From assembly GCA_013375495.1 (NCBI GenBank), contig JABXKC010000012.1, positions 21,057 to 85,056 on the forward strand: a stretch of 64,000 bases of DNA, written 5' to 3'. The stretch is from Promethearchaeota archaeon. GTDB lineage: Archaea; Asgardarchaeota; Lokiarchaeia; Sigynarchaeales; SOKP01. How positions within the stretch are numbered: position 1 is the stretch's first letter; every line of letters starts with the position of its first letter. The notes below the pieces were generated by a model. That model ran no database searches and was not told where the DNA came from. It saw nothing but the letters and a program-made list of their open reading frames with translations. Both the position numbers and the translations under genes were made by a program. Of this stretch, positions 6,749 to 57,804 are shown piece by piece.

Positions 6749-6875
6749 AATTATTAAAAAGAATTATTCCTTATTTAACGGTTAAAATTATCGTCTAATA
6801 TCTGATTTCATTATTGATGTTAGAAAATATAAAGTTTCATGTTAAATCAATACTACTACTTAAATCTTATAGAAA

Positions 6876-6885
6876 ATTTTATAAG
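6876..6885 (+). promoter_or_regulatory. Candidate TATA box of the leucine leader transcript
   Basis: The A+T-rich element ATTTTATAAG lies about 50-60 bases before the leader ORF start. Archaeal initiation about 25 bases downstream would place the RNA start near 6905 and put the whole leader ORF in the transcript. Confidence 0.4.
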
Positions 6886-6935
6886 TGTCCTTTTATTTCC
6901 ATTTTAATAGATAATTGAAAAGGGATTCATAAGTA

Positions 6936-7037
6936 ATGCTGTTTCAAAAAACAACTAAAACTGAATCTAGGAATTCATTTCTGAAATTTAATCCCTTTTT
7001 ATTGTTATTATTAAATCTTCTCTTATTATTACTGTAA
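6936..7037 (+). CDS. leuL-like: Leucine-rich leader peptide upstream of leuA (candidate attenuator leader)
   Basis: 33 codons, ATG to TAA, too short for ordinary gene calling. A purine-rich AAGGGAT (about 10 bases before the ATG) can serve as ribosome-binding site. The peptide ends F-L-L-L-L-L-N-L-L-L-L-L-L: 11 of its last 12 residues are Leu. These 11 use five different Leu codons (seven TTA, one each TTG, CTT, CTC, CTG), which argues that the amino acid is being selected and that this is not simply a TTA repeat. The stop is followed within 3 bases by the first arm of overlapping hairpins, then a U-rich tract and leuA. This is the arrangement of bacterial leuL leaders, where scarcity of charged tRNA-Leu stalls the ribosome. 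Function is inferred; the reading frame and codon content are seen directly. Confidence 0.75.
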   Translation: MLFQKTTKTESRNSFLKFNPFLLLLLNLLLLLL

Positions 7038-7039
7038 TT

Positions 7040-7089
7040 ACCCCTCTCTTCCGTTTTATGGAAAGGGAATTCTTTTTCTTTAGAGGGGT
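7040..7089 (+). promoter_or_regulatory. Competing RNA hairpins and U-rich tract between leader peptide and leuA
   Basis: ACCCCTCT (7040-7047) pairs perfectly over 8 bp with AGAGGGGT (7082-7089). The first arm also overlaps a second hairpin: the CCCT (7042-7045) and TTCC (7049-7052) segments pair with AGGG (7064-7067) and GGAA (7060-7063) around a 7-base loop. A pyrimidine tract (7070-7081, mostly T) follows that inner hairpin as in a terminator. The segment AAAGGGA (7062-7068) can also pair with TCCCTTT inside the leader ORF (6992-6998). The alternatives are at least partly exclusive. Which form lets transcription through cannot be told from sequence. A TATA-like GTATATAA at 7093-7100 just downstream might be an internal promoter for leuA. 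Confidence 0.6.
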
Positions 7090-7125
7090 TGTGTATATAA
7101 ATTAATTAAAGATAGGTAAGGAAAA

Positions 7126-8745
7126 ATGGAAAAAAACAACAATGTAAGTGTTTCGCAAATAATGGAGGAAATAAGAGATACGCTAATTCTTCCAGATAAA
7201 GCATATTTTTTCGATACGACGCTCCGCGACGGTGAACAAACCCCGGGCATAAGTTTTACTCACAAAGAGAAATTGTCAATCGCGCAAGCACTAAATGAGA
7301 TGAAAATGGATGTAATTGAAGCAGGATTTCCAGTTACTTCTATAGGAGACTTTGAAGCATGTAGAGATATAGCTAAATTGGGTTTAAATTCTGAAGTAAT
7401 GGGATTAGCAAGAATGGCGAAACTTGATATTGATAGAGTTATCGAAGCGGACATGGATAGCATTCACCTTTTTATTGCAACCTCGGATATCCATCTTAAG
7501 TCAAAACTTCAGATGAGCCGAGAGGAAGTAATAGAACAAATTCAGAAATATATTTCTTATGCAAAAGAGCATTACTCTACGATTTTATTTTCAGCCGAAG
7601 ATGCAACTCGATCCGATCTAAGTTTCTTGATTAGAGCGAATCTTACCGCAATTGAAAGTGGAGCAACAAGAATAAACATTCCTGACACTGTAGGCACAAT
7701 TTCACCAAAAGCGTATGGGTATATGGTAAAAAATGTATACAAAGCGATTCCAAAAAAAATTAGAATAGCAGTACACTGCCATAACGATTTTGGCTTAGCT
7801 GTTGCAAACACCATCGCGGGATTCGAAAATGGCGCCTCTGAAGCACAAACAACTATAATGGGATTAGGCGAACGAGCAGGTAACGCCTCTTTCGAGGAAA
7901 CAGCAATGTCACTCTATGCACTATACCAACTACCAATGAATATCATAACCAAAAAGATTTTTCCTACTGCTAAACTTATTGAGAGTTATTGTGGTGGAAA
8001 GGTTAAAATAGGACGACTTCAACCGCTAATCGGGCAAAATGCATTTACTCACGAAGCGGGCATCCATGCTCACGCGATGATAAAAAATGCGCGAACTTAC
8101 GAGCCAATTACTCCACAGTTAATTGGAATAAGCAGATCAGACGATGTTATGGATATTATTAAGCAATCCATTAAATTTGGGAAACACAGCGGAGGTCACG
8201 CACTAAAAGCAAAATTAGGAGACTTAGGGATTAATACCGACGAACAACAATTCGGCAAAATTATGACCCATATTAAAGAATTTGGCGACAAAGGACACGA
8301 AGTTTCGGAAGAAGATTTTTTAGCAATCGTTAAGGATGTAATGGGAGAAATTCCCGAAGAAGAACAATTCGTAATACTTGAAGAACTTACCGTTCTTACG
8401 GGTTCTATAACACCTACTTCAACTGTGCGCTTGAAAATAAGAAACGGCGATTTTATAGAAAAAGTTGCTTCCTCGGTAGGAGTAGGTCCTGTCGATGCTT
8501 CAGTAAATGCCATAGTTAAATGTTTTAAACCTATGAGCAATATTAAGCTATTAAATTTCCAAATTGACGCCATCACGGGAGGAACTGAATCATTAGGACA
8601 TGTAACAATTGAAATCTTAGATATCGAAAGTAAAATAATTGTTAAAACTAGCGCCACTCACGAAGATATAGTAATGTGCTCCGTTTTAGCTCTTATAAAA
8701 GGCTTAAACTTAATAGTCAAGAAAAAAAGTTCCGAAATGGAGTAA
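7126..8745 (+). CDS. leuA: 2-isopropylmalate synthase
   Basis: 539 residues. The catalytic TIM-barrel begins with F-D-T-T-L-R-D-G-E-Q-T-P-G (about 29-41), where the Arg, Asp and Glu bind metal and substrate. H-C-H-N-D-F-G-L-A with the metal-binding His pair follows at about 218-226, and G-I-H-A-H closes the barrel. The last 130 residues form the C-terminal LeuA regulatory domain, so allosteric feedback inhibition is likely. The enzyme condenses acetyl-CoA with 2-oxoisovalerate. Citramalate and homocitrate synthases are close relatives, but the leuCD partners and the Leu-codon leader favour leucine synthesis. The ATG is preceded by AGGTAAGG five bases upstream. Confidence 0.9.
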   Translation: MEKNNNVSVSQIMEEIRDTLILPDKAYFFDTTLRDGEQTPGISFTHKEKLSIAQALNEMKMDVIEAGFPVTSIGDFEACRDIAKLGLNSEVMGLARMAKLDIDRVIEADMDSIHLFIATSDIHLKSKLQMSREEVIEQIQKYISYAKEHYSTILFSAEDATRSDLSFLIRANLTAIESGATRINIPDTVGTISPKAYGYMVKNVYKAIPKKIRIAVHCHNDFGLAVANTIAGFENGASEAQTTIMGLGERAGNASFEETAMSLYALYQLPMNIITKKIFPTAKLIESYCGGKVKIGRLQPLIGQNAFTHEAGIHAHAMIKNARTYEPITPQLIGISRSDDVMDIIKQSIKFGKHSGGHALKAKLGDLGINTDEQQFGKIMTHIKEFGDKGHEVSEEDFLAIVKDVMGEIPEEEQFVILEELTVLTGSITPTSTVRLKIRNGDFIEKVASSVGVGPVDASVNAIVKCFKPMSNIKLLNFQIDAITGGTESLGHVTIEILDIESKIIVKTSATHEDIVMCSVLALIKGLNLIVKKKSSEME

Positions 8746-8776: not shown

Positions 8777-10051
8777 ATGGGTTTAACAATCACAGAGAAA
8801 ATTCTTAGAGAACACTGTCAGAATAAAAGTGCTACTGCCGGTGATTTTATTATGGTAGATATTGATAAGTGTTTAGCAAATGACATCACCGCCCCTATTG
8901 CCATTGAAGTATTTAATGAAGTTATAACTGGAAAGAATGTAGATGTTTTTGATCCTAAAAAAATAATTTTAATCCCAGATCATTTTACTCCAAATAAAGA
9001 TATAGCTTCTGCTGCTCAGAGTAAAATTCTTAGGGATTTTGCTATGAAATACAACATTAATAACTATTTTGAAGTCGGTAGGGGCGGCATTGAGCATTGT
9101 CTCATACCTGAAAAAGGACTAGTGTCTCCTGGAGATGTCTTTATTGGAGCGGATTCACATACATGCACATATGGCGCACTTGGAGCTTTTGCAACTGGTG
9201 TTGGATCTACAGATTTAGGTGTTGCGATGGTATCAGGAAAATGTTGGCTAAAAATTCCAGAGTCAATTAAATTCATATTTTCGGGTAAGTTAAGAGAATG
9301 GGTTTCCGGAAAAGATTTGATTTTGTATACAATAGGAAAGATTGGTGTAGACGGAGCTTCATATAAAGCTATGGAATTAAGCGGAGAAGTTATTGGTAAA
9401 TTATCCATGGCTAATAGGTTCACAATTTGCAACATGGTAATAGAAGCGGGAGCTAAAAATGGAATCATTACTCCAGACAAGGTGACAAATTCCTACTTAG
9501 AATCAAGTGGCTTTACTTTAGGAAAGAGTCATCAAAGTGATAAAGATGCAGAATATATCGACACAGTAGAAATCAATTGCGATAAGATTGAACCTCAAGT
9601 AGCTTTACCCCATTCACCCGCAAATGTTAAACCAATAACAGAAGTTAACGATATGAACATAGAAATAGATCAAGTAGTTATCGGGTCATGTACGAATGGT
9701 CGAATTGAAGATTTAAGAATAACAGCAAAGATTTTAAAAAATAAAAAAATAAAGCCTAATTTAAGATGTATTATTATACCAGGGACTCAGGAAACGTATC
9801 TTAGAGCTATAAAAGAGGGTTTAATTGAAATATTAGTTAATGCTGGAGCCATTATCTCTACACCGACTTGTGGTCCTTGTTTAGGAGGTCATATGGGAAT
9901 TTTAGGAGAAGGGGAAAAAGTTTTATCTACAACAAACAGGAATTTTAAAGGAAGAATGGGGCATATTTCAAGTGAAATATATTTAACAAGCCCCGCGGTG
10001 GCAGCATTTTCTGCAATTAAGGGACGCATTACATCTCCTCAATTTAATTAA
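8777..10051 (+). CDS. leuC: 3-isopropylmalate dehydratase large subunit, archaeal LeuC/HacA type
   Basis: 424 residues, the usual size of the short archaeal/thermophile large subunit. The 4Fe-4S ligands are visible: one Cys in G-S-C-T-N-G-R (about 309) and two in T-P-T-C-G-P-C-L-G-G-H (about 367-370). The G-A-D-S-H-T-C-T-Y-G-A-L-G-A-F substrate loop is present near residue 125. With the small subunit it isomerises 2- to 3-isopropylmalate by dehydration and rehydration. It lies 31 bases after leuA and before leuD, so the three are probably one transcript. Homoaconitase specificity cannot be excluded from sequence alone. Confidence 0.9.
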   Translation: MGLTITEKILREHCQNKSATAGDFIMVDIDKCLANDITAPIAIEVFNEVITGKNVDVFDPKKIILIPDHFTPNKDIASAAQSKILRDFAMKYNINNYFEVGRGGIEHCLIPEKGLVSPGDVFIGADSHTCTYGALGAFATGVGSTDLGVAMVSGKCWLKIPESIKFIFSGKLREWVSGKDLILYTIGKIGVDGASYKAMELSGEVIGKLSMANRFTICNMVIEAGAKNGIITPDKVTNSYLESSGFTLGKSHQSDKDAEYIDTVEINCDKIEPQVALPHSPANVKPITEVNDMNIEIDQVVIGSCTNGRIEDLRITAKILKNKKIKPNLRCIIIPGTQETYLRAIKEGLIEILVNAGAIISTPTCGPCLGGHMGILGEGEKVLSTTNRNFKGRMGHISSEIYLTSPAVAAFSAIKGRITSPQFN

Positions 10052-10069
10052 TTAAAAAAATTGAATAAA

Positions 10070-10570
10070 ATGAAAATGAATGGAAAAGTAATCAAATATC
10101 ACCAGAAAAATATCGATACCGATCTGATTATTCCGGCAAGGTATTTAGTGAATGCTGAACCAAAATTTTTAGCAAGTCATTGTATGGAGGATTTAGATAT
10201 AGATTTTGTAAAGAAAGCTAATGATAACAATTATTCTATCTTAGTTGCGGGTTCGAATTTTGGGTGTGGATCAAGTAGGGAACAAGCTCCTTTAGCTCTT
10301 AAAGCTTGTGGTATAAAATGTATTATCGCACCATCATTTGCTAGGATATTTTTTAGAAATGCAATAAACATAGGATTACAAATAGTAGAATTATCTAATA
10401 TTGATGACATAAACACTGGAGATCTACTAGAGATTAATTTAAAAGCAGGTGAAATATACAATACAACCTCATTACACAATTACGAAGTTAAAAAACAACC
10501 AGTCTTCCTCCAGGAAATAATTTCCGACGGAGGTTTAGTCAACTTTGCGAAAAAGAGATTGATTAGTTAA
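10070..10570 (+). CDS. leuD: 3-isopropylmalate dehydratase small subunit
   Basis: About 166 residues. The N-terminal N-I-D-T-D-L-I-I-P-A-R-Y-L motif and the swivelling-domain G-S-N-F-G-C-G-S-S-R-E-Q-A-P motif (the substrate-binding loop with Ser-Arg) are both intact. It partners with the large subunit 18 bases upstream. ATG at 10070 or 10076 is preferred over the in-frame TTG at 10061 because the family normally starts a few residues before the K-Y/V-x-x-x-N-I-D-T-D motif. No leuB is found in the window, so 3-isopropylmalate dehydrogenase must be encoded elsewhere. Confidence 0.9.
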   Translation: MKMNGKVIKYHQKNIDTDLIIPARYLVNAEPKFLASHCMEDLDIDFVKKANDNNYSILVAGSNFGCGSSREQAPLALKACGIKCIIAPSFARIFFRNAINIGLQIVELSNIDDINTGDLLEINLKAGEIYNTTSLHNYEVKKQPVFLQEIISDGGLVNFAKKRLIS

Positions 10571-10616: not shown

Positions 10617-12860
10617 TTATAGAATAAACGGATTAAAAATTCTTTTTATTATCAGTGAATATAAAGCCTCTATTTCCTTCGAATCAAAAGTAATCTCTCT
10701 AATTAATTGGGTTACATAAAAATAATCTAACCTGTTTTTTTTCATTATAGTTATCGCTTTGTTTATTAAGGATTTTTCTGTTGGAGCAATTTTCATCTTA
10801 CCCGTTCCAGTTAACTTAAGAGGATATAAGAAAGTTGTGCCCATATGAGTTCTCAATAAACTTTCAATACCTTCAAATGGTTGAAGATTACCCTTGAATT
10901 CTTTCAAATAAATTCCATATTTCTCCTCAATCTCTAATGATAGATCGTCAATTATTTCGTAAAATTGTGGAGAAGGCAAATCTTTCATAATAAATATGAG
11001 TCTGAAATGCTTAAAGTCTGACATTAAGATTTTTGAGTTTTGATATTCAAGTTTAATTGTTTGTGAATGTTCCTCTGAGGTTGATATATCTAACCCAAAA
11101 GATCGAATCGCCTCCAAGAATCCTGAAACGAGCGTTGAATTGAATTTTTTCTCTGTAAAAGCCTGATCATATATGTTTAGAGAGGACTTCTTTTCGATGA
11201 TAATCACATAATTCAAATTCAGGATATCCATAAATTTGTTCATAATTTTTTCTTTTGCAGCAATTTTCTTTTTCTTATTTCTTTTAGCAAGCACAACTGA
11301 TGATACCGTTACCGCAGAACTTAATCCCACTATAATTACGATACCAATTATCATTGCCCAGTCAATTACTTCTGGTAAAATTACTGTGAAAACTTGAGTT
11401 ACTATGCCCGCATCAGTGCCGTTTAACCAATAAACAAACACTTTGTATGAACCATCCAATGCGTTTGAAGGAAATGTGTAAGCAAAACTGTTTGATTCGG
11501 GAGGTATTAATTTTGTTGTTATATTAATTTGTGTTTCATAAGTATCAGTTAAAACGAAAGTATAATTCCCCTCCAAAACAGGGGTGGCGATGAAAAATTT
11601 TAACTCTTGACCAGGATAAAACTCTGTCCTACTTACATCGAGATTAAAATCTTTTTTTGATGAACTGGCGGTTATTTCCCATGAATCGCCTTCGGAAATA
11701 AAACTATTAGAGATGTAGATATAATTTTCAACATGATTAACATCGACTAAACCAGTGATATTAACTTCATTTCTTAATAGACTTACATCAAACCATTTAC
11801 TGGGAAAATTAAATTTCACAGAATAATTGTTAAACTCTGGGGCGAGTATAGGAGTAACGCTCCAGTAGTTATCATGGGTTTCTGCTATCTCTATTGTTCC
11901 TGGAGAAGTGAAGTGATTTTCTAATTTGAGATCGTAACTAACATTAAACATCAATTCAATCGTTCTATTATGATAAACCGGGAAAACCACATCAGTTTGA
12001 TTCAGAGGTATATTAACATTAGATATTTGCACTTTTCCACTTCCTGGTGAACTGTTATTTATAGTGTAAATAGTATCATCGACTTTTATCGTCATATTGA
12101 TTGCTTCTGGATCAAATGATTGATCGGTTCTTTGTATCAATTTATGTGAAAAAGGTTCACCCATAACATCATCGAGCCAAACACCAGAAATGTATTTTGA
12201 GGTATAGAGGTTTGTATGAATTGAACCAGACGCATTATAAGCCCAGTTGTGATCGGAATTATCATATGATTTATATTCTGAACCATTAACTACTAAATAA
12301 TAGTAGCCTTTCGAAAGAGAGATTGGTTCTGGAAATTTTTGAACGTACCAACCGGGAGTAGTTGAAATATTAATAGGGCCGGGGTTCCCATATATGGTGG
12401 CATTTGGTCTATGATTTACCTGGTTGTACCCGTTAATTTGTACATAAACAGAACTATATGTAGTCCCAAATAAATACCCAAAAATCTGAACTCCTATGAG
12501 GGTAATATCTTCTGTGATGTTAAGTTGAACACCATAACCCCTCACACCTTTATATACTGATTTAAAGCTTTTGTCTGCTTCTTCAATTGATTTTACTTCT
12601 TCTCCTAATTTAATATCGGTAATATTCAGTTCTAAATTTGTAACATTCCATTTCGAACCAGGGAGACTTATTTTTATGTGATTAGTATTAAATTGTGTTG
12701 TTGAAAAGTTCGAGAATTCTTGAAACCTATAATTAACATCAGCAGTTAAAGAATCCCCATTTGATTGGGCGTAAACTATATTGGGTTGATTACTACACGC
12801 AATTAATATGCTTAAAATTAGTAGATTTATTGAAATAAATGTTTTAATTTTACTTCTCAT
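10617..12860 (-). CDS. Large surface protein with one TM and a longin/roadblock-like cytosolic tail (paralogue 2)
   Basis: 747 residues, same architecture as the protein at 546-2834: N-terminal hydrophobic segment, sequon-rich exterior, one TM near residues 497-520 followed by a Lys-rich stop-transfer, and a cytosolic domain of about 220 residues with the V-I-I-I-E-K-K-S-S-L...L-V-S-G-F-L-E-A-I pattern. Here the leader ends I-L-I-A-C, which fits a lipobox, so a lipid-anchored N-terminus is possible; cleavage after V-Y-A is the alternative. Both paralogues share blocks such as the L-N-x-T-D-I-K-x-G-E segment and the H-K-L-I-Q-(K/R) segment, so the exterior also aligns and not only the tail. 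A TATA-like element (minus strand, about 12911-12922) lies upstream. Confidence 0.75.
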   Translation of the reverse strand: MRSKIKTFISINLLILSILIACSNQPNIVYAQSNGDSLTADVNYRFQEFSNFSTTQFNTNHIKISLPGSKWNVTNLELNITDIKLGEEVKSIEEADKSFKSVYKGVRGYGVQLNITEDITLIGVQIFGYLFGTTYSSVYVQINGYNQVNHRPNATIYGNPGPINISTTPGWYVQKFPEPISLSKGYYYLVVNGSEYKSYDNSDHNWAYNASGSIHTNLYTSKYISGVWLDDVMGEPFSHKLIQRTDQSFDPEAINMTIKVDDTIYTINNSSPGSGKVQISNVNIPLNQTDVVFPVYHNRTIELMFNVSYDLKLENHFTSPGTIEIAETHDNYWSVTPILAPEFNNYSVKFNFPSKWFDVSLLRNEVNITGLVDVNHVENYIYISNSFISEGDSWEITASSSKKDFNLDVSRTEFYPGQELKFFIATPVLEGNYTFVLTDTYETQINITTKLIPPESNSFAYTFPSNALDGSYKVFVYWLNGTDAGIVTQVFTVILPEVIDWAMIIGIVIIVGLSSAVTVSSVVLAKRNKKKKIAAKEKIMNKFMDILNLNYVIIIEKKSSLNIYDQAFTEKKFNSTLVSGFLEAIRSFGLDISTSEEHSQTIKLEYQNSKILMSDFKHFRLIFIMKDLPSPQFYEIIDDLSLEIEEKYGIYLKEFKGNLQPFEGIESLLRTHMGTTFLYPLKLTGTGKMKIAPTEKSLINKAITIMKKNRLDYFYVTQLIREITFDSKEIEALYSLIIKRIFNPFIL

Positions 12861-49148: not shown

Positions 49149-50978
49149 CTACTTTTTTTGAGTTGTATAAACCAAACTCACTGAATCATTACTGATGTTC
49201 TTCTTTAGCTTTTCAATTGGCTTAAAATCTTCGTTTAGAACATAATGGCTAATTTGCATGATCTCATTGAGGACTTCGTTACATTTTCTATCGTTGAGTA
49301 TAAAACCTCGTTTTATAAGCGATTTGCTTTTATTATACAAGAGAAGAATGACCTTGATGAGACCTAGCATTTTTTTACTACTCGTAAAATTATCGATCTC
49401 GTTGAAAGCGTTTTGTATAAAAAAGGCATTTCTAATAAGATCTGCTATAAATAGTTCTAACTTTTGATCTTCAGCTAAATTTTTCTGCCCTAGCAGTTGA
49501 GTAATGTATTTTAAATCATTTTCTTTTGCTAATATCTCATTTACCTGCTTTCTACACTCAAACCAATCTAGTTTTATATCAAACCAATTTTCATCTGTTT
49601 TCTCCCACCAATCTACTAAGTATTCAGGATAATTTGAATAAGAATTAATCCAACTAATCGCGGGATAATGTTTCAGATAAGCTAATTTGGAATCTAGAGC
49701 CCATATTCCCTGAACAACGCGTTTCGTAGCAGATGTAACTGGCTCACTGAAATCGCCAGCAGGAGGTGATATAGAACCTATAATGGTTATGGACCCCTTT
49801 CTTCTTTTTCCGTTAGGATCGTGCCCTTGGGTCGTAAAAACACCAGCTCGTTCATAAAAACTTGATAATTTTGAGGGTAAATAAGCCGGATAGCCTTCTT
49901 CGGCAGGCATTTCCTCTAATAACCCCGATATCTCTCTTAAAGATTCTGCCCATCTTGAGATACTATCTGCAATAACCGCGACATCGTATCCCATATCTCT
50001 GTAATATTCTGCGATTGTTATACCTGAGAAAAGGCTTGCTTCTCGAGCAGACACGGGCATATTTGAAGTATTTACAATAAGAACGATGCGATCCAGTAAC
50101 GGTCTTCCAGTATCAGGATCAATCGTTTCAGTGAACTGTTTAAGGAAGTTGGCTATCTCATTCCCAGGTTCACCACACCCTATGAATACAATTAAATCTG
50201 CACTACAATACTTAGCAATGTTTTGTTGGATAATTGTTTTGCCTGTTCCAAATCCTCCTGGAACAGCAAATGTACCCCCTTTAGCTATGGGAAATAATAA
50301 ATCTATGATCCGCACACCAGTCAACAAAGGCTCGTTAGGTTGTTCTTTTTCGCTAAAAGGCTTTCTCTTTGTAACTGGCCATTTTTGTAGCATGCAAAAA
50401 GTTTCCGTTTTGTTATCGATTTTCAAACTATATATATCGTCAATAATGGTATAATCCCCTTCTTCTGCAATAAAAGACAATATGCCTGATTTTCCAGGTG
50501 GCACCATTATTTTATGGTATAAAGAAGAAGTTTCTTGAACCGTTCCAATCTCGTCACCACCAGACACGAAATCAGTTATTTTTCTGGTTGGAACAAATTG
50601 CCATTCTTTCGTTCTTGAAAGAGATGGGAATTCAAGTCCTTTATTTAATCTTCCTTCTTGAAAAAAATCGAAAGTAAGGTCTAGAGGTCGTTGTATTCCA
50701 TCAAAAACATTTGCTATTAACCCCGGGCCTAATTCCATAGACAAAGGCTCTTGTAGGTTAACAACCTTTTCGTTCAATTTAATACTGTTAGTGTTTTCAA
50801 AAGATTGAGCAATAATACGGTCCGAGTAGATTTGGATTACTTGACATAAGAAATTATGATTGCTTATTTTAATTAAATCATTAAGTCTGACAGCACTCTC
50901 CAATCCTTTTATTTCCACTAATGATCCGTTAACCGCAGAGATAAAACCCTCCTTGGATTCGTTAATAGCTACAACCAT
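49149..50978 (-). CDS. Second A-type ATPase A subunit (A2), altered GER motif
   Basis: 609 residues, colinear with the A subunit at 55963-57804. The P-loop G-G-F-G-T-G-K-T (241-248) is intact, but the catalytic G-C-G-E270-R-G-N-E motif reads G-C-G-E270-P271-G-N-E; in the F1 beta subunit the equivalent Arg contacts the gamma phosphate. A second change is D-S-I-S-R-W where D-S-T-S-R-W is normal (338-343). The rest, including the bulge domain and the [10 protein letters not shown] segment, is conserved, so the gene is not decaying. It is the last gene of the operon, after the small zinc-ribbon gene. It could form mixed A/A2 hexamers or a separate complex. Confidence 0.85.
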   Translation of the reverse strand: MVVAINESKEGFISAVNGSLVEIKGLESAVRLNDLIKISNHNFLCQVIQIYSDRIIAQSFENTNSIKLNEKVVNLQEPLSMELGPGLIANVFDGIQRPLDLTFDFFQEGRLNKGLEFPSLSRTKEWQFVPTRKITDFVSGGDEIGTVQETSSLYHKIMVPPGKSGILSFIAEEGDYTIIDDIYSLKIDNKTETFCMLQKWPVTKRKPFSEKEQPNEPLLTGVRIIDLLFPIAKGGTFAVPGGFGTGKTIIQQNIAKYCSADLIVFIGCGEPGNEIANFLKQFTETIDPDTGRPLLDRIVLIVNTSNMPVSAREASLFSGITIAEYYRDMGYDVAVIADSISRWAESLREISGLLEEMPAEEGYPAYLPSKLSSFYERAGVFTTQGHDPNGKRRKGSITIIGSISPPAGDFSEPVTSATKRVVQGIWALDSKLAYLKHYPAISWINSYSNYPEYLVDWWEKTDENWFDIKLDWFECRKQVNEILAKENDLKYITQLLGQKNLAEDQKLELFIADLIRNAFFIQNAFNEIDNFTSSKKMLGLIKVILLLYNKSKSLIKRGFILNDRKCNEVLNEIMQISHYVLNEDFKPIEKLKKNISNDSVSLVYTTQKK

Positions 50979-51012
50979 TTTTATATTCTCAATTTTTTTA
51001 CTATTTTAAAAA

Positions 51013-51552
51013 TTATAATGTTCGCGTTCCGCAGATTGGGCATTTTTTTATAGATTTGGGAATCGTCATCCCACAGGTTTTACATTTCTTGATTACTTCT
51101 TTTAATTCAAAATCCTTACCACATGTAGGGCACTTTTTCTTGTAACCAGTTATCATCATTCCGCAATTTTCGCATTTATTGATAAGAGATTTACGATACC
51201 TAAAATTTAGGTCCACATTTCTTAACTTTTTTTGCACTAATTCCTCAGAATCTGTTTCAATGTTCAATTCTAACTTTCTAGGAGGACGTTGATTTTTATT
51301 TCGTTTTTTATCAGGATATAGTTCTGAATAAATGGTTTTTGTTTTTGTTTTTCTAAAGATAGATCCAAGAACAATTGAAGACATACAAAAGAGGAGTAAT
51401 ATTGTAATAAAAGGATTAATCCCAATTATAGATAAAATGTAAAAGAGGAATACAACAAAAACTAAATAAATGATTAGAATTAATATTCTTACAAGTTTTC
51501 CTCTTTGGCGTACTGGTTTTTCCTTATAATCTCCCTTATTCTCGTTTTTCAT
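51013..51552 (-). CDS. Two-TM protein with two zinc ribbons, in the ATPase operon
   Basis: 179 residues. A basic start is followed by two closely spaced TM helices (about 21-65) and a basic linker. Two C-terminal zinc ribbons, C-x2-C-x10-C-x2-C each (C-E-N-C-G...C-P-T-C-G and C-K-T-C-G...C-P-I-C-G), are near copies, suggesting internal duplication. It lies 35 bases after the I-subunit gene and 34 bases before the A2 gene, so it belongs to the operon. It could be an assembly factor or a regulator of the enzyme; no family recognised. Confidence 0.7.
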   Translation of the reverse strand: MKNENKGDYKEKPVRQRGKLVRILILIIYLVFVVFLFYILSIIGINPFITILLLFCMSSIVLGSIFRKTKTKTIYSELYPDKKRNKNQRPPRKLELNIETDSEELVQKKLRNVDLNFRYRKSLINKCENCGMMITGYKKKCPTCGKDFELKEVIKKCKTCGMTIPKSIKKCPICGTRTL

Positions 51553-51587
51553 TGTATAATTTCCTACTTGAAAATCAAAATTATTAG

Positions 51588-53912
51588 TTACATATATTTT
51601 TTAGATACTAGTTTTTCTGCTTCAATTATGTCCTTTTGAGTTATTTTTGACTCGATTTCTTTGTCTATTTCTTCGGATATTACATCTTTAATGCTACTTA
51701 TCTTGAAATCTATTACTGAATATATATCGTCTGAATAGAACGGAATGTAGTTTAGACCACTACCTTGATAAAATTTAAAGAAAAATTCATAGAAATGAAG
51801 TCTGATAGCATTTATAAAGACTAATAATCCTTCTAGCAGAATTACAATCATATTCCCAAATACAGAACCTACGATATTAATAATATCGTTAACTATACCC
51901 TCACCTTGAACCAAATTACCCATTGCTGTGATTGCAACCATTAATGATATGTGTGCTAGGGCTAACGCTAGTAATCTTATATAAGACGCTATGTTACTCA
52001 TAATTGATAGGAGCGTTTCAAAAGTCTCCATTGTACCCTCTCCAATAAGGCCACCAAAAGATTCTTCACTCAAATAAGATATATGTAATATTTTACCTAA
52101 TGGTTTTAACACTATTAACAATAAACCGGGAATTAACGGTAACAAAATAGGGTAGGTAATAAATATAAAGTAACCAAACTGGAATATAACTTGAGGTTCT
52201 AACCAAGAATAAATATCAAATCCAAAAGTAAAAATTAGAATGGTTCCTCCAGTTAATAACAATATTTTCATTAAGGAATCAGTAAAACCTAAAAATTTTC
52301 TATTTTGTTTCCAATAATTTAAAAATTGAACGAACCAGCCCAAATTAATGTGAAACACTCCAACCAAGACAGCAAACTTAAAAACTGACATTATATTATC
52401 TAAAGGATTGTACAAAGTAATATTCAATATAGGAATCGTCATAGGCTCTAAATGCATGTAAACGGTACTAAATAACTTAATTTCATGCATTCCAAAAAAT
52501 TCCCCGTAGAGAAAACCAATTATTACTGCCCCAACACCACAATATAGAATGATCCAGCAAAAATTTAAAAAATCCTTTCCTTTTTTGTTTCTATAAACTA
52601 TCGCACCAACTAAACCTGCAATAATTAAGACAAGACCATGTCCAATATCTCCAAACATTATCCCAAACAAAATCGGAAATGTTATCGCAATAATAGGGGT
52701 AGGATCAATTTCTGAATACGCAGGAACCCCATACATTTTAGTAACTGTTTCAAAAGGTCTAACAAAGAAATTATTCCTCATGATAGTAGGAGCTGTATTT
52801 CTTAAATCTTTTTTTACTTTTTCCTTTTCTTTCACTGATGTTTCTTCTTTTGAAATTGTTCCTTCTTTTGCGTCTTTAGACTTCCCAGAAGGTACGTGAT
52901 CCTTATCTTCTTTCAGACTTACAAATTTACTTTTTGTAATATTGATTGAATCGATTGTAATTTTATCTTTAAATTTTTCAATTAACCCTTGTTGTATTTC
53001 TTTCTCTTTCCCTTTAGGTAGGTAAAAACTCAAACTTAATCGATTTAAGGATAGTTCTTCAAATTGATGTGAAACCCAGTTATATTCTTCTAAATTTTTC
53101 ACTATCTCATAGGCGGCAGCAAACAGAAGGAGGTGATCGTCTCTTATTCTATCTAATTCTATTTGATTTTTATTTAAAGATGTAATTACAAACTTGATTT
53201 CTTTTGCTATACGGGGAAAGTTTATACCATCAGAGAGTAAATACTTTTTTAGAATCGGTACCTCTTCAGCGTGAATTAGCCGTATCCTATCTCGAAATTC
53301 TTCCTCGTTTTCCTTAGGATGGATTATAAAAAACGCTATTCTATCATTACTTAAATAATCGTAATGAAGAAAATTTGGGAAATGTGAGAACTCAAAGATA
53401 TTTTCAATATTTTCTAAATTCTTTGCAAATGTTGTAAAGGCTTTAAACTCCAAAACTTTGAATTTCATTAATTTATCTCGCGTTAACTTGTATTTCTCCA
53501 AAAAGAGATAACTTCCATGGATTGTATTAATTTTTTCTAGCTCAATTTCAATAGAAGTGCGACTTTTTTTTAACTCGTTAATACGATTTGAATAGTAATT
53601 GATTTCATTTACGAGTTGGTTTATTAAATCGTTAATATCTTTCACTTCAAATTTTTTCCTCTCATCAGGTTCAATACTTAATTTCTGGAAATCAGATTCT
53701 GTAATATCAAGACTTTTAAATAAAGATTCTAAACTCTGACTTAATTTATTAATTCTCTCAAATAAAGCATCATTCTTTTCAAATTTCGCACTTTCTTCAG
53801 GTCTAGTTTTAATGTGAACTAAACTGAGTTGAGATAGATATTGTAGGAGGATATCCCTGTAATTTTGATTAATATTAACCCTAAATAATACCATTGCACT
53901 TTTTTCTGTCAT
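51588..53912 (-). CDS. atpI: A-type ATP synthase subunit I (a subunit)
   Basis: 774 residues. The N-terminal 360 residues are the cytosolic stator part with coiled coils; a charged linker (about 325-365) leads to seven or eight TM helices. The essential Arg lies in S-Y-I-R-L-L-A-L-A-L-A-H-I-S-L (about 645-659), at the rotor interface. The linker is unusually Lys/Glu-rich. It anchors the peripheral stalk formed by E and H and carries the ion half-channels. The D gene is 17 bases upstream, and the zinc-ribbon gene follows. Confidence 0.9.
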   Translation of the reverse strand: MTEKSAMVLFRVNINQNYRDILLQYLSQLSLVHIKTRPEESAKFEKNDALFERINKLSQSLESLFKSLDITESDFQKLSIEPDERKKFEVKDINDLINQLVNEINYYSNRINELKKSRTSIEIELEKINTIHGSYLFLEKYKLTRDKLMKFKVLEFKAFTTFAKNLENIENIFEFSHFPNFLHYDYLSNDRIAFFIIHPKENEEEFRDRIRLIHAEEVPILKKYLLSDGINFPRIAKEIKFVITSLNKNQIELDRIRDDHLLLFAAAYEIVKNLEEYNWVSHQFEELSLNRLSLSFYLPKGKEKEIQQGLIEKFKDKITIDSINITKSKFVSLKEDKDHVPSGKSKDAKEGTISKEETSVKEKEKVKKDLRNTAPTIMRNNFFVRPFETVTKMYGVPAYSEIDPTPIIAITFPILFGIMFGDIGHGLVLIIAGLVGAIVYRNKKGKDFLNFCWIILYCGVGAVIIGFLYGEFFGMHEIKLFSTVYMHLEPMTIPILNITLYNPLDNIMSVFKFAVLVGVFHINLGWFVQFLNYWKQNRKFLGFTDSLMKILLLTGGTILIFTFGFDIYSWLEPQVIFQFGYFIFITYPILLPLIPGLLLIVLKPLGKILHISYLSEESFGGLIGEGTMETFETLLSIMSNIASYIRLLALALAHISLMVAITAMGNLVQGEGIVNDIINIVGSVFGNMIVILLEGLLVFINAIRLHFYEFFFKFYQGSGLNYIPFYSDDIYSVIDFKISSIKDVISEEIDKEIESKITQKDIIEAEKLVSKKYM

Positions 53913-53929
53913 TTTTTAATCACTTCGAA

Positions 53930-54574
53930 TTAAATTACTTTTTTTATCAAGGCTTTTGTATTCTTTAAACGAACGTAGTTTTCTCTTTCGTTTTCTTCTA
54001 ATATCTCTTTAATTTTTTTAATTTCGAGTTGTAACTCAGGAATTATTACATTCTTTAATCCTTTAATTCTCCTGTTTATTTTCTTGTAAGATAGAGATAT
54101 TTTTAACATTATATCTTCTAATCTTGCATAGACAATGAGATGTTCAAAAAATTCCTCTAAAACTATTATTAAATCATCAAGGTAATGACTTGAATTTTCA
54201 AAGGAATATGCAGGAAGTAATTCCTCCTTTATCAATTCATATTCTATTACAGGTATTAACGATCCAATCTTTTTAAAATACTTTACATCTATCGTAGGTT
54301 TGTACTGGAGTTTACTCAACTTACTGATTAAGCTAAAATCTCTTTTTCCCATTTCTTTATAAGTTTGATGAAGCTTAATCATAGTTTCTTTGTATAAATC
54401 GATGAAGGTTTCACGACTCCTTAAATAACTATCCCAATTTTCTTTAATCTCAAACATTAGTTGCTCTAATTTAAATTTTAAAAAGTTTTCACCTTTAACC
54501 GCAAAAGTTAATCTCTTCTGCAACGAGAGTAGATTAGTTTTTGTGGGCCGGAGTTCACGAAAGGACGCTTTTAA
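53930..54574 (-). CDS. atpD: A-type ATP synthase subunit D; start codon unclear
   Basis: The rotor-shaft subunit: two long coiled-coil helices and a V-I-P-E-L-x-x-x-I-K-K-I-x-E-x-L-E-E-N-E-R-E-N segment near the end, as in the family. The first standard start is a TTG at 54523, but the preceding 17 codons are open and encode L-R-P-T-K-T-N-L-L-S-L, the family's conserved N-terminus (P-T-(R/K)-x-x-L-L-x-L). These codons begin directly after, and in frame with, the TAA stop of subunit B, and none is ATG/GTG/TTG/ATT; GGAGAGGTG precedes them. Either a non-standard codon near 54568-54574 is used, or B-stop readthrough occurs, or there is a sequence error. Confidence 0.85.
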   Translation of the reverse strand, partial: LKASFRELRPTKTNLLSLQKRLTFAVKGENFLKFKLEQLMFEIKENWDSYLRSRETFIDLYKETMIKLHQTYKEMGKRDFSLISKLSKLQYKPTIDVKYFKKIGSLIPVIEYELIKEELLPAYSFENSSHYLDDLIIVLEEFFEHLIVYARLEDIMLKISLSYKKINRRIKGLKNVIIPELQLEIKKIKEILEENERENYVRLKNTKALIKKVI

Positions 54575-55966
54575 TTACACCTCTCCAACATAATATTTAT
54601 CGATTAATTGTTGGTGGATTCTAAATAATTGGTGCCTTGGCATATGAGATAAAGCTTTCCAAGCAATATCTAGCGTTGAATTGATATCTCTTTCTTCAGA
54701 ATAACTTTGATTTAAAAAAGTTTGCTCGAAGACTTCTCCAAATTTCAATAAAGCCTTCTGATTATAATTTAATCCATCTTCTCCGACAATCGAAATAAGA
54801 TCTCTAACTTCAAGAGTAGCGGAGTAAGAAGATAATAATTGAGAGCTAACATCCGCATGGTCTTCTCTGGTAGTATCTTTACCAATCGCATCTTTCATTA
54901 ACCGGGAAATAGAAGCTAAAACCTCAAGCGGAGGATAAATTCCTTTTTTATCTAAATTGCGATTTAGAACTAATTGCCCTTCGGTAATATATCCAGTAGT
55001 ATCCGGAATAGGGTGGGCTATATCTCCACCTGGCATTGTCAGAATCGGTATTTGTGTTATAGTACCCTTTTTACCCTTAATTTTTCCAGTTCTTTCATAA
55101 AGGGAAGCAAAATCAGTATATAAATATCCGGGGTATCCCTTCCTGCTAGGAATCTCTTCTTTAGCAGAGCTAAGCTCCCTTAAAGCTTCCGCATAATTGG
55201 TCATGTCAATTAATATTACGAGAACGTGCATATCTTTTTCAAACGCAAAATATTCTGCCGTTGATAAAGCTACACGAGGAACTATTAATCTTTCCATTAT
55301 TGGATCGTCAGCAAAATTGATAAAAGAAATAATATTCTGAATATTTCCACTCTCTTGAAAACGTTTCATGAAAAAAATCGCTTCATCCTGGATGATTCCT
55401 ATCCCACAAAAAATTATTAAGAAAGGTTCTTCGGTCAATACTTTGGCTTGAGTAACAATTTGAGCTGCTAATAAATTATGGGGCATTCCTTGATCGCTAA
55501 AAATGGGGAGTTTTTGTCCTCTAATTAATGTAAAAAGGCCATCTATCACAGAGATCCCTGTTTGGATAACTTCTGAAGGATATTCTCGAGCGAATGGATT
55601 AATTGGTAAACCGTTTATATCTCTTTCTATTTCAGTTAATATTTCAGATTGTAATACTTGTTTAGTATTAATATCAATCGGCTTTCCTAAGGAGTTAAAT
55701 ACTCTTCCAAACATATCACTAGATATTTTTATTTTGAATGAATCTTCAGTGAAGATAATTATAGAATTTTCTGAAGAAAGTCCAGCTGTATCTTCAAATA
55801 CTTCGATAGTTATCGTACTTTGGTCCATTTTCACTACTTGACCCGTACGTTCTTTTCCATCGTTTGTTTGAATTTTGACGATCTCACCATATTGTACATC
55901 GTGTTTATTATCTAAAAACACTAAAGGTCCAATAATTTTTTTGATCTTTCGATAAATTACGCTCAT
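54575..55966 (-). CDS. atpB: A-type ATP synthase subunit B
   Basis: 463 residues. It is the non-catalytic partner of the A subunit: the P-loop region reads F-S-D-Q-G-M-P-H-N (about 168-176) instead of a Walker A. The segment E-E-I-P-S-R-K-G-Y-P-G-Y-L-Y-T-D-F-A-S-L-Y-E-R and the C-terminal helix bundle are standard. Its ATG overlaps the A stop (ATGA), so translation is coupled. Intact and full length. Confidence 0.95.
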   Translation of the reverse strand: MSVIYRKIKKIIGPLVFLDNKHDVQYGEIVKIQTNDGKERTGQVVKMDQSTITIEVFEDTAGLSSENSIIIFTEDSFKIKISSDMFGRVFNSLGKPIDINTKQVLQSEILTEIERDINGLPINPFAREYPSEVIQTGISVIDGLFTLIRGQKLPIFSDQGMPHNLLAAQIVTQAKVLTEEPFLIIFCGIGIIQDEAIFFMKRFQESGNIQNIISFINFADDPIMERLIVPRVALSTAEYFAFEKDMHVLVILIDMTNYAEALRELSSAKEEIPSRKGYPGYLYTDFASLYERTGKIKGKKGTITQIPILTMPGGDIAHPIPDTTGYITEGQLVLNRNLDKKGIYPPLEVLASISRLMKDAIGKDTTREDHADVSSQLLSSYSATLEVRDLISIVGEDGLNYNQKALLKFGEVFEQTFLNQSYSEERDINSTLDIAWKALSHMPRHQLFRIHQQLIDKYYVGEV

Positions 55967-57804
55967 TTTTTCTTAAAAACACCGTGTAATAATTTTAAAG
56001 ATTCTATTTCATTAATCAGTTTACTTCTTAAGTTTTCTAAGTTTTTAAAGTCATTATTTGAAACTGAACGACCAATTCTAAGGATCTCATTTACAACCTT
56101 AAGTTCTTTGATTTCTTCGATTAAATATCCTTGATTTATTAACTGATTACCTTCGTTATACAATAATAATATGAGTTTTACAAACCCAATTAATTTTCTA
56201 ATCCCTGTAAAGCAGTCAATCGAATCAAATGCATTTTGAATTAGAAAGCTATTTCTAGTTATTCTAGCAATAAAAAGGATAAATTGTTGATTTTCAGGTA
56301 AATTTTCTTCACCTACTAACTGGACAATATTTTTAAGTTCATTCTCTTGAGATAGCAAGCTATTTATTTTTTTTCGACACTCATACCAATCTATGTCTAT
56401 CTCAGGCCAATAAATATCTCTTTCATACCACCAATCAGAGATGAATTCAGGGTATTTTGAATATGAGTTTAGCCAATTTATTGCGGGGTAGTGCTTGGAG
56501 TATGCTAGATTTGCGTCTAATGCCCAAAATGCTTGAACAAAACGCTTAGTTGTTGAAGTTACGGGCTCACTGAAATCTCCTGAAGGAGGAGACACTGAAC
56601 CGATAATAGTTAAAGAACCATAATTCTCTTTTCCTAAATCTTCATCCCCAAAAAGATTAACGAAGCCGGCTCTTTCATAAAAACTAGAAATCTTAGAAGG
56701 TAAATACGCAGGATATCCTTCTTCAGCGGGCATTTCTTCTAATAATCCAGAAATTTCTCTCAAGGATTCTGCCCACCTTGAGGTACTATCAGCTAAAACG
56801 GCTACGTCGAAGCCCATATCTCTATAATACTCTCCAATAGTAACTCCAGAGAAAATACTGGCCTCTCGAGCAGATACAGGCATATTTGAAGTATTCGCAA
56901 TGATAACAATTCGTTCCAGTAATGAGTGACCGGTAGTTGGGTCAGTGATTTCAGAGAATTGTTTTAGAACATCTGCTATTTCATTTCCGCGTTCTCCACA
57001 TCCAACAAAAATTATAACATCTGCGTTGCTCCATTTTGCTAAAGATTGTTGAATTACGGTTTTACCCGTTCCAAAACCACCAGGAACCGCTACTGTGCCT
57101 CCTTTTACTATTGGAAATAATAAATCAATTACCCTCATTCCGGTTATTAGTGGTTCTTGAGGATAACTTCGTTCTTTATATGGTCTATGCTTTGTAATTG
57201 GCCATTTCTGAATCATATTAAAGGATTTTTCTTGTGATCCTCTTTTTAAACGATAGATATCATCAATTACCGTATACTCCCCTTCCTCTGCTATATAAGT
57301 AATTTTTCCAAAAACGCCTACCGGAACCATTATTTTATGCTCAATAAGTTGAGTCTCTTGAACAACTCCAATAACATATCCCGTACTTACAAAATCATCA
57401 ACCTTCCGTAATGGCTTAAACACCCATTTTTTCTCCCTTGATAGGGATGGATTATCTGCGCCTCTCTCTAAAAAACCGCCCTCTTCAGATTTTAAAAAAA
57501 TTGCTTCTAGAGGTCTCTGAATACCATCAAATATTTTACCTAATAATCCCGGACCTAATTCCATGGATAACGGTTCTTGTAAACTTATAACTTCTTCATT
57601 TAGTTTTAAATTATTAGTATTTTCAAATACTTTTGCGATCACATGATCGGGATAAATTTGAATGACTTCACCTAAAATTTTATGCTTAGACTCCCTAATT
57701 AAATCATTTAAGCGTACTTGGTCTTCTAAGCCCTTAATCTCTATTAAGGCTCCATTTATGGATGAAATGTATCCAGATTTAATTTTTTCTTGTGTTTCAT
57801 TCAT
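55963..57804 (-). CDS. atpA: A-type ATP synthase catalytic subunit A (A1)
   Basis: 613 residues. The P-loop is G-G-F-G-T-G-K-T (242-249; the usual archaeal form is G-x-F-G-x-G-K-T), followed by the intact G-C-G-E271-R272-G-N-E motif and D-S-T-S-R-W-A-E. The non-homologous bulge domain (about 110-190) typical of A/V subunits is present. It hydrolyses or makes ATP at the interface with B. The start overlaps the E stop by 8 bases. Clear paralogue of the protein at 49149-50978, sharing long identical stretches such as [16 protein letters not shown]. Confidence 0.95.

Follow-up and report, generated by a model that had tools for sequence, protein, structure and literature searches.

Upstream of the leuA operon of a Promethearchaeota archaeon lies a short open reading frame with a run of leucine codons at its end; a predicted hairpin comes directly after it. 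The region lies in a contig stretch of 64,000 nucleotides, hereafter the window. The Leu-codon leader frame is real and far from chance, and two predicted stems, P0 between the ribosome-binding region of the frame and the segment ahead of its Leu run, and P1 just after its stop codon, coevolve across 30 non-redundant leaders. The leader likely senses leucine: a starved ribosome would hold P1 open and leuA expression would go up; a leucine-replete ribosome would leave and P1 would close.

A leucine-codon leader in front of leuA

The elements of the leuA region of the window are:

6878..6885, + strand: candidate leader promoter, TATA-like TTTATAAG, found in upstream sequences of the window clade where these can be aligned
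6918..6927, + strand: P0 5′ arm AAAAGGGATT, overlapping the Shine-Dalgarno-like sequence of the leader; perfect 10-bp complement of 6990-6999
6936..7037, + strand: leader ORF upstream of leuA, ATG to TAA, 33 codons, MLFQKTTKTESRNSFLKFNPFLLLLLNLLLLLL
6990..6999, + strand: P0 3′ arm AATCCCTTTT, immediately 5′ of the Leu run
6999..7034, + strand: Leu run, 11 of 12 codons Leu (TTA, TTG, CTT, CTC, CTG)
7040..7047, + strand: P1 5′ arm ACCCCTCT, separated from the leader stop codon by 2 nt
7042..7067, + strand: imperfect hairpin of the window clade overlapping P1, partly present in the predicted fold of the window
7070..7081, + strand: U-rich tract TTCTTTTTCTTT, within P1 and 5′ of its 3′ arm
7082..7089, + strand: P1 3′ arm AGAGGGGT, forming a perfect 8-bp stem with 7040-7047
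7092-7099: TATA-like octamer between P1 and leuA
7114..7121, + strand: Shine-Dalgarno-like sequence of leuA, AGGTAAGG
7126..8745, + strand: leuA, 2-isopropylmalate synthase with a LeuA_dimer allosteric domain (Pfam PF00682, PF08502)
8777..10051, + strand: leuC, isopropylmalate dehydratase large subunit (Pfam PF00330 and operon position)
10061..10570, + strand: leuD, isopropylmalate dehydratase small subunit (Pfam PF00694 and operon position)

The original prediction, made from the sequence of the window, had described a 33-codon ATG-to-TAA frame with 11 Leu written in five different codons among its last 12 residues, a perfect 8-bp stem and a U-rich tract. All of these are present, and the stem, our P1, covaries in relatives. 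The leader promoter is listed as a candidate because the TATA score of its region (6.93, against 6.91 for shuffled sequence) does not separate it from the AT-rich background.

We searched LeuA orthologues in 83 genomes of the class of the window, taken as Lokiarchaeia, and retained 45 genomes, with identities of at least 49%. In a separate comparison with named records, all of them metagenome-assembled genomes (MAGs), the window LeuA is 95% identical to that of a Lokiarchaeota MAG, which marks the host as a Lokiarchaeon; the phylum is taken as the Asgard archaea. A Leu-rich leader frame was found upstream of leuA at 35 of the 45 related loci as well as in the window, with its stop codon located 87-132 nt before leuA. 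Two automatically picked frames that are not Leu-rich leaders (G079, G081) were excluded from the counts. The original prediction had set relatives lacking the frame against the proposed mechanism. Such relatives exist, since 10 of the 45 loci in the class and all 11 LeuA loci recovered elsewhere in the phylum (227 genomes, E ≤1e-130, leuA starts set roughly) have no Leu leader; their distribution follows LeuA divergence, the leader being present at 35 of 35 loci where LeuA identity is at least 67% and at 0 of 10 where it is at most 63%. The Leu leader is therefore confined to one part of the class. The LeuA gene of G019 is split across two contigs (68% and 61% identity), and the G033 match (L033) carries one in-frame TAA, which is either an assembly error or the mark of a broken gene.

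Conservation of the leader peptide is concentrated in its Leu run, the N-terminal halves being poorly conserved. Leu occupies codons -4, -3, -2 and -1 before the stop in 35, 35, 32 and 32 of 36 leaders, respectively, and codons -13 to -7 in 17-25 of 35 or 36 leaders, i.e. about half to two thirds. Within the window clade (nine sequences), changes in the Leu codons are almost all synonymous; the exceptions are a Leu-to-Arg replacement at -1 and two cases of Phe at -12, a position at which one of the sequences is truncated. The chance expectation was estimated from 11,508 mechanically called ORFs with lengths of 15-80 codons, drawn from the window and the loci (817 kb in total). At least 8 Leu in the last 12 residues, a level reached by 28 of the 36 leaders, were found in 27 distinct C-terminal tails, 22 of which belong to leuA leaders and 5 to other ORFs.

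The DNA pattern of the end of the run is by itself a weak marker. It produced 17 matches in 16 of the 83 genomes, against 7 for a reversed control pattern, and only three of the 17 are located before leuA (L069, L070, L083). Among the other 14, 12 have no in-frame start codon, another (L074) forms the end of a long gene, and the last (L080) is a 16-codon frame with five terminal Leu upstream of a GTPase gene. Several genomes of the class carry the AT-rich pattern CTTTTATTATTATTATAA up to about 110 nt upstream of genes for small Ras-like GTPases (L075, L076, L078-L082), where it is perhaps a promoter-like element.

Four distant relatives without a Leu run (L052/G010, L056/G012, L059/G011 and L060/G013) have a different conserved tiny frame upstream of leuA. 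These frames (MRDSVLKVR*, MGYRVLNN*, VWDCVLCPGSTK*) share a conserved Val-Leu (GTT CTC) and are preceded by a GGTGA-like signal, as judged by eye; in G010 a strong stem lies 3′ of the frame.

The stems P0 and P1

Stems were analysed in 30 non-redundant leaders, five near-duplicates being omitted together with G005, whose leader is cut by a contig end. P1 is predicted to start 1-6 nt after the leader stop codon in all 30, and its 3′ arm extends to 49-61 nt past the stop, without reaching the leuA start codon. Compared to dinucleotide shuffles, the P1 fold has a z-score of -2.3 in the window and a mean of -3.5 over the 30 leaders (25 at -2 or below, all 30 at -1 or below); control windows gave means of -0.3 and +0.2 in the same test.

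Coevolution was assessed by exchanging the arms between leaders. Native pairings were better than swapped ones for P1 (z -10.3) and for P0, which pairs the ribosome-binding region of the leader with the segment preceding the Leu codons (z -8.6), with none of 20,000 permutations as good in either case; the own partner was the single best one for just 9 (P1) and 5 (P0) of the 30 leaders. Five control pairings, among them that of the Leu codons with the P1 3′ arm and that of the P1 5′ arm with the leuA Shine-Dalgarno, ranged from -0.2 to +1.7. An unbiased scan of 407 pairs of 20-nt windows produced eight pairs below z -4, corresponding to P1 (four), P0 (three) and one self-overlapping window pair. 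The original prediction, which featured two hairpins, did not include P0, the second conserved stem over the ribosome-binding region of the leader.

The P1 alignment contains 37 doubly changed paired cells, compared to 18.2 after shuffling (0 of 500 shuffles reach this value), and 78.7% pairing, compared to 51-62% in slid versions; since the structure was read off individual folds, these figures lean towards pairing, and the shuffled and slid controls are to be read with them. The number of P1 pairs with any double change (11) shows no excess over shuffled (9.1, reached by 94 of 500) or slid (8-12) alignments. In a biased sample of 17 sequences, picked for the visibility of the inner P0 stem in many of them, this stem reaches 86.6% pairing, compared to 24-56% in slid versions; the arm-swap test is the unbiased one for P0. 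RNAalifold predicted 0 pairs for the whole P1 alignment, probably because P1 varies in length and register from clade to clade. At gathering score, none of the 4227 families of Rfam 15 matched the 64-kb window, and at E values up to 10 the only two matches in 6850-7140 (E 1.8 and 3) were on the opposite strand.

We then looked for the elements of a bacterial-type switch. The hairpin at 7042-7067, proposed as an alternative to P1, is present in imperfect form; a competing-hairpin switch built on it was rejected, as the region pair reaches a z of just -2.0 (30 leaders, windows 0 and +20) and is unconserved beyond the window clade. The alignment of regions upstream of leuA, suggested as a check of the original prediction, thus recovered the Leu run in 35 of 45 relatives and covariation in P1, and none in this second hairpin. 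Nor were mutually exclusive terminator and antiterminator stems detected, the 407-pair scan giving P0 and P1 alone. In arm-swap tests on the 30 leaders, no coevolving pairing linked the leuA Shine-Dalgarno sequence to the P1 5′ arm (z 0.4) or to the Leu codons (z 1.7), and the pre-Leu segment did not pair with the P1 3′ arm (z -0.2). Sequestration of the leuA Shine-Dalgarno was rejected on this lack of coevolution. The idea that the Leu-codon segment is an antiterminator pairing with the P1 3′ arm, suggested by visual inspection of two genomes, was discarded with an overall z of 0.1.

Intrinsic terminators were not apparent either, since in most of the 30 leaders P1 is followed by an A-rich sequence without a U-tract. 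Eight of the 30 contain a run of at least four T at or beyond +50, and 11 a run of at least five T between the leader stop and leuA. In predicted folds, masking the stop codon and the 9 nt that follow had little effect on the mean unpaired probability of the U-tract (0.47 to 0.40) or of the Shine-Dalgarno (0.75 to 0.64); in the window itself, masking of the 5′ arm lowered that of the U-rich part of P1 from 0.84 to 0.28. P1 as a general switch exposing or hiding a U-tract for the termination factor FttA was rejected, as predicted folds gave no consistent change. The layout of a bacterial terminator/antiterminator is therefore not reproduced: there is no conserved competing hairpin, mostly no U-tract and no coevolution with the Shine-Dalgarno. 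Together with the position of the Leu codons, which abut the stop, this contradicts the original statement that the region has the exact layout of bacterial leu leaders.

Trp and His leaders at other biosynthetic operons

Of 37 genomes inspected, 17 (14 of the class and three from outside it) have a Trp-rich leader at a trp operon. TrpD loci were 20 picked by score among the matches listed, paralogues included. In the class, these leaders sit upstream of trpE, trpD or trpA. Seven have TWFWxWRWHA-like ends (G028, G029, G030, G035, G036, G037, G076) and three FRWxWxWRA (G008, G039, G045); the others read SWTIWAWRL (G014), WRWQWSWWRWQ (G026), VWAWWRA (G074) and EWPWCWRN (G013), the last in a frame overlapping the called trpD start. 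For the three outside the class, WFCWLFWYW (G179), WRSWWWI (G227) and PWWHWF (G178), the distance to the called trpD start is 49-85 nt. The Trp leader of G028 is separated from trpD by a 99-codon frame. G037 has two Trp-rich leaders at separate loci (L196, L120), upstream of trpE and of trpD, respectively.

In 16 of the 20 genomes without a Trp leader the inspected trp gene follows another gene, and in five of these 16 (G022, G079, G080, G082, G083) the sequence falls short of the operon start. No Trp leader was seen in G010, G031 and G032, where one could be expected; G012 shows, by eye, a Trp cluster (FWSWSWHY) without a standard in-frame start. At least three Trp in the last 10 residues were found in 25 of 12,288 distinct short ORFs, a count made before the last trp loci were added, and 12 of the 25 are the leaders described here. 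In trp leaders, a hairpin could form across the last Trp codon and the stop, with arms GCACG/CGTGC in one group and GCGCG/CGCGC in another; the window over the stop folds no better than shuffles in the 12 trp leaders tested (z -1.9 to +0.9).

His-rich leaders, with clusters such as HHWLHHE, precede 6 of 30 his loci (G008, G009, G041, G045, G059, G062). The distance from their stop codon to the first his gene is 86-87 nt in five and 83 nt to the aligned ATG in G062. A predicted hairpin is located directly 3′ of all six (z -1.5 to -6.9), and a P0-like repeat was recognized by eye in five. At least four His in the last 10 residues occur in 10 of the 12,288 ORFs, seven of which are His leaders (one counted twice, as a truncated copy). 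The his operons of the window clade have no His leader, and none was found beside hisG because this gene is internal to the his operon. The leaders at L136-L140 show a second hairpin, which immediately precedes the G-rich Shine-Dalgarno sequence in front of the first his gene. Its arms are AAACTGAA..TTCAGTTT, or CAAACTAAA..TTTTAGTTTG in G008, with a compensatory change.

Two further pathways yielded no convincing leaders. By threshold, none of the 12 best ilvC loci has a frame rich in branched-chain residues, no upstream gene being seen in four of them (L093-L096). No convincing leader was found at pheA (25 loci, from 55 genomes above the cut-off); a gene lies directly upstream at most of these loci. 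A 14-codon frame rich in Phe and Tyr in G031 (L200), MDYFFFYYNYLKKD, about 35 nt before pheA, lies in poly-T and was not counted; a Phe/Tyr leader at this position is possible but unconvincing.

In the leaders found, the final cognate codon is always among the three that precede the stop, at -1 or -2 for Leu and for His and at -1 to -3 for Trp. The match between codon and pathway in three operons makes ribosome sensing of aminoacyl-tRNA supply the best reading. These pathway-matched codons are our strongest argument, and would be hard to explain except by such sensing. That leu, trp and his operons form an Asgard regulon, each sensing its own tRNA charge by means of a cognate-codon leader and a single stop-proximal hairpin, appears somewhat more probable than the contrary.

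A model for leucine sensing and its alternatives

The following steps can be proposed from the sequence comparisons. The leader frame would be translated, and a ribosome short of charged Leu-tRNA would stall at the Leu codons beside the stop, keeping the predicted hairpin P1 open, with a likely rise in leuA expression. With ample leucine, the ribosome would finish and depart, P1 would close and expression would fall. P0 may close over the ribosome-binding region of the leader behind the translating ribosome, so that the position of a single ribosome would decide the outcome. A stall at the end of the frame is favoured because the last cognate codons are near the stop and because the 5′ arm of the leu and his hairpins lies within the cover of a ribosome stalled there, given the size of the ribosome footprint. 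We favour an action of P1 on transcription, for example through FttA, since no coevolution links P1 to the leuA Shine-Dalgarno.

The polarity could be the reverse. An early stall would then free P1, whose folded form would shield the nascent RNA from termination and be the ON state, a ribosome at the stop corresponding to OFF. Strongly starved ribosomes would already halt on the earliest Leu codons, as far as 36 nt 5′ of the stop and short of P1, which favours this polarity; a long Leu run offers many chances of stalling upstream of P1 and so fits it better. It also agrees with the lack of a conserved terminator hairpin in the 407-pair scan: according to the consulted sections of a study of FttA, this factor has a preference for U-rich RNA located some 30-36 nt behind the 3′ end of the RNA (PMC11616081), which would make such a hairpin unnecessary. 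However, Leu is also highly conserved at -2 and -1, where a stall masks P1, and in predicted folds masking of the 5′ arm fails to expose the U-rich part of P1, which in the window even becomes less accessible. We regard the reversed polarity as possible and rather improbable. Control could also be exerted at translation, with translation of the leader altering leuA initiation on the same mRNA by coupling or masking, without transcription attenuation. The proximity of the elements is compatible with it, as the leuA Shine-Dalgarno ends the region that begins with the leader, whose stop is 87-132 nt before leuA, and P0 covers the ribosome-binding region of the leader itself. Yet the leuA Shine-Dalgarno has no coevolving pairing to P1 or to the Leu codons (z 0.4 and 1.7), and the P1 3′ arm, at 49-61 nt after the stop, does not reach the start codon. 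This explanation seems unlikely to us.

Two further readings would dispense with sensing. The peptide could function as a small hydrophobic membrane peptide with the Leu run as transmembrane segment, the last 20 residues having a GRAVY of 2.0 in the window. Hydrophobicity is not conserved, however, and we rejected a small membrane protein on this ground: G036, G049, G054, G055 and G077 keep Leu although 4-5 of their last 14 residues are charged or amides, and the G054 peptide, FFSLELCLNESDLDLLLL, keeps Leu and loses hydrophobicity. The N-terminal halves are poorly conserved, and the Trp- and His-rich counterparts do not resemble hydrophobic segments of the Leu type, making such a function very improbable. 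Finally, AT-rich sequence with TTA repeats and an incidental inverted repeat could have arisen by chance, leuA being transcribed from an internal promoter near 7093. The genomes are indeed AT-rich, TATA-like matches between P1 and leuA score slightly above shuffled sequence (mean 6.50 against 5.90 of 8), and the run-end DNA pattern is unspecific, 14 of its 17 matches in the 83 genomes lying elsewhere than before leuA. Against this stand the conserved frame, the synonymous codon changes, the compensatory stems and the cognate trp and his leaders, which leave hardly any room for chance. Given the conserved frame, the covarying P1 and the Trp and His counterparts, the peptide-dependent control put forward in the original prediction is the most convincing reading by a wide margin, and a leucine-sensing leader with P1 held open by a stalled ribosome is its likely form; the proposed terminator/antiterminator architecture was not found.

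Ribosome-mediated attenuation is a textbook mechanism of Bacteria. The archaeal leaders share with the attenuators of E. coli (trpL, hisL, pheL, leuL) a frame rich in codons for the amino acid concerned before the first gene, with stems in and after it. They have a short frame with a ribosome-binding signal (35 of 45 relatives and the window) and a codon cluster for their own pathway. In most archaeal trp leaders the potential hairpin over the last Trp codon and stop, judged by eye and from predicted folds, resembles the 1:2 stem of E. coli trpL. They differ in their archaeal host, in the absence of a conserved antiterminator/terminator pair, mostly in the absence of a U-tract, and in having Leu codons that abut the stop, whereas those of E. 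coli leuL are located well upstream of it. One hairpin beside the leader stop, with a fold that would hinge on the position of a single ribosome, is also found in leaders of the pyrBI and ermC types. The signal here would be tRNA charging, instead of UTP (pyrBI type) or a drug (ermC type); unlike pyrBI, the archaeal leader has no intrinsic terminator and, unlike ermC, its P1 leaves the leuA Shine-Dalgarno free. By analogy, the function would be that of bacterial leader-peptide attenuation, two of whose defining features, the terminator/antiterminator pair and the U-tract terminator, are missing.

Attenuation was presented in the original prediction as not established in Archaea. This agrees with a 2021 paper according to which, in the part consulted, neither transcription attenuation nor antitermination is known in archaea (PMC8448881), and we found no prior report of an archaeal leader-peptide attenuator in the open-access literature searched. 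Plausible output machinery may be provided by post-initiation control, described as promoter-proximal elongation in Saccharolobus (PMC8448881) and as termination by FttA/aCPSF1 (PMC11616081); in the sections consulted, neither involves a leader peptide, unlike the proposed Lokiarchaeal system. The FttA source also discusses termination and a possible competition with coupled ribosomes (PMC11616081). Methanosarcina uORFs have been reported from ribosome profiling, without such a mechanism in the portion of the article considered (PMC11456600).

If the model is correct, this would be the first peptide-dependent attenuation in Archaea, operating without bacterial terminators on a eukaryote-like archaeal polymerase. 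The single-hairpin design suggests an output step unlike the bacterial terminator switch. Cognate leaders at three pathways would show that coupled translation and gene expression serve amino-acid sensing in Asgard archaea, taken to be the closest known prokaryotic relatives of eukaryotes, and the leaders could be used as compact codon-specific reporters for probing archaeal transcription-translation coupling.

Two other arrangements were noticed by eye in the window. The sulfatase-leu region is flanked by genes for two similar predicted secreted or membrane proteins (546-2834 and 10617-12860, - strand). A V/A-type ATPase cluster (49149-57804, - strand) contains two similar A-subunit-like genes (49149-50978 and 55963-57804) with a B-subunit-like gene between them.
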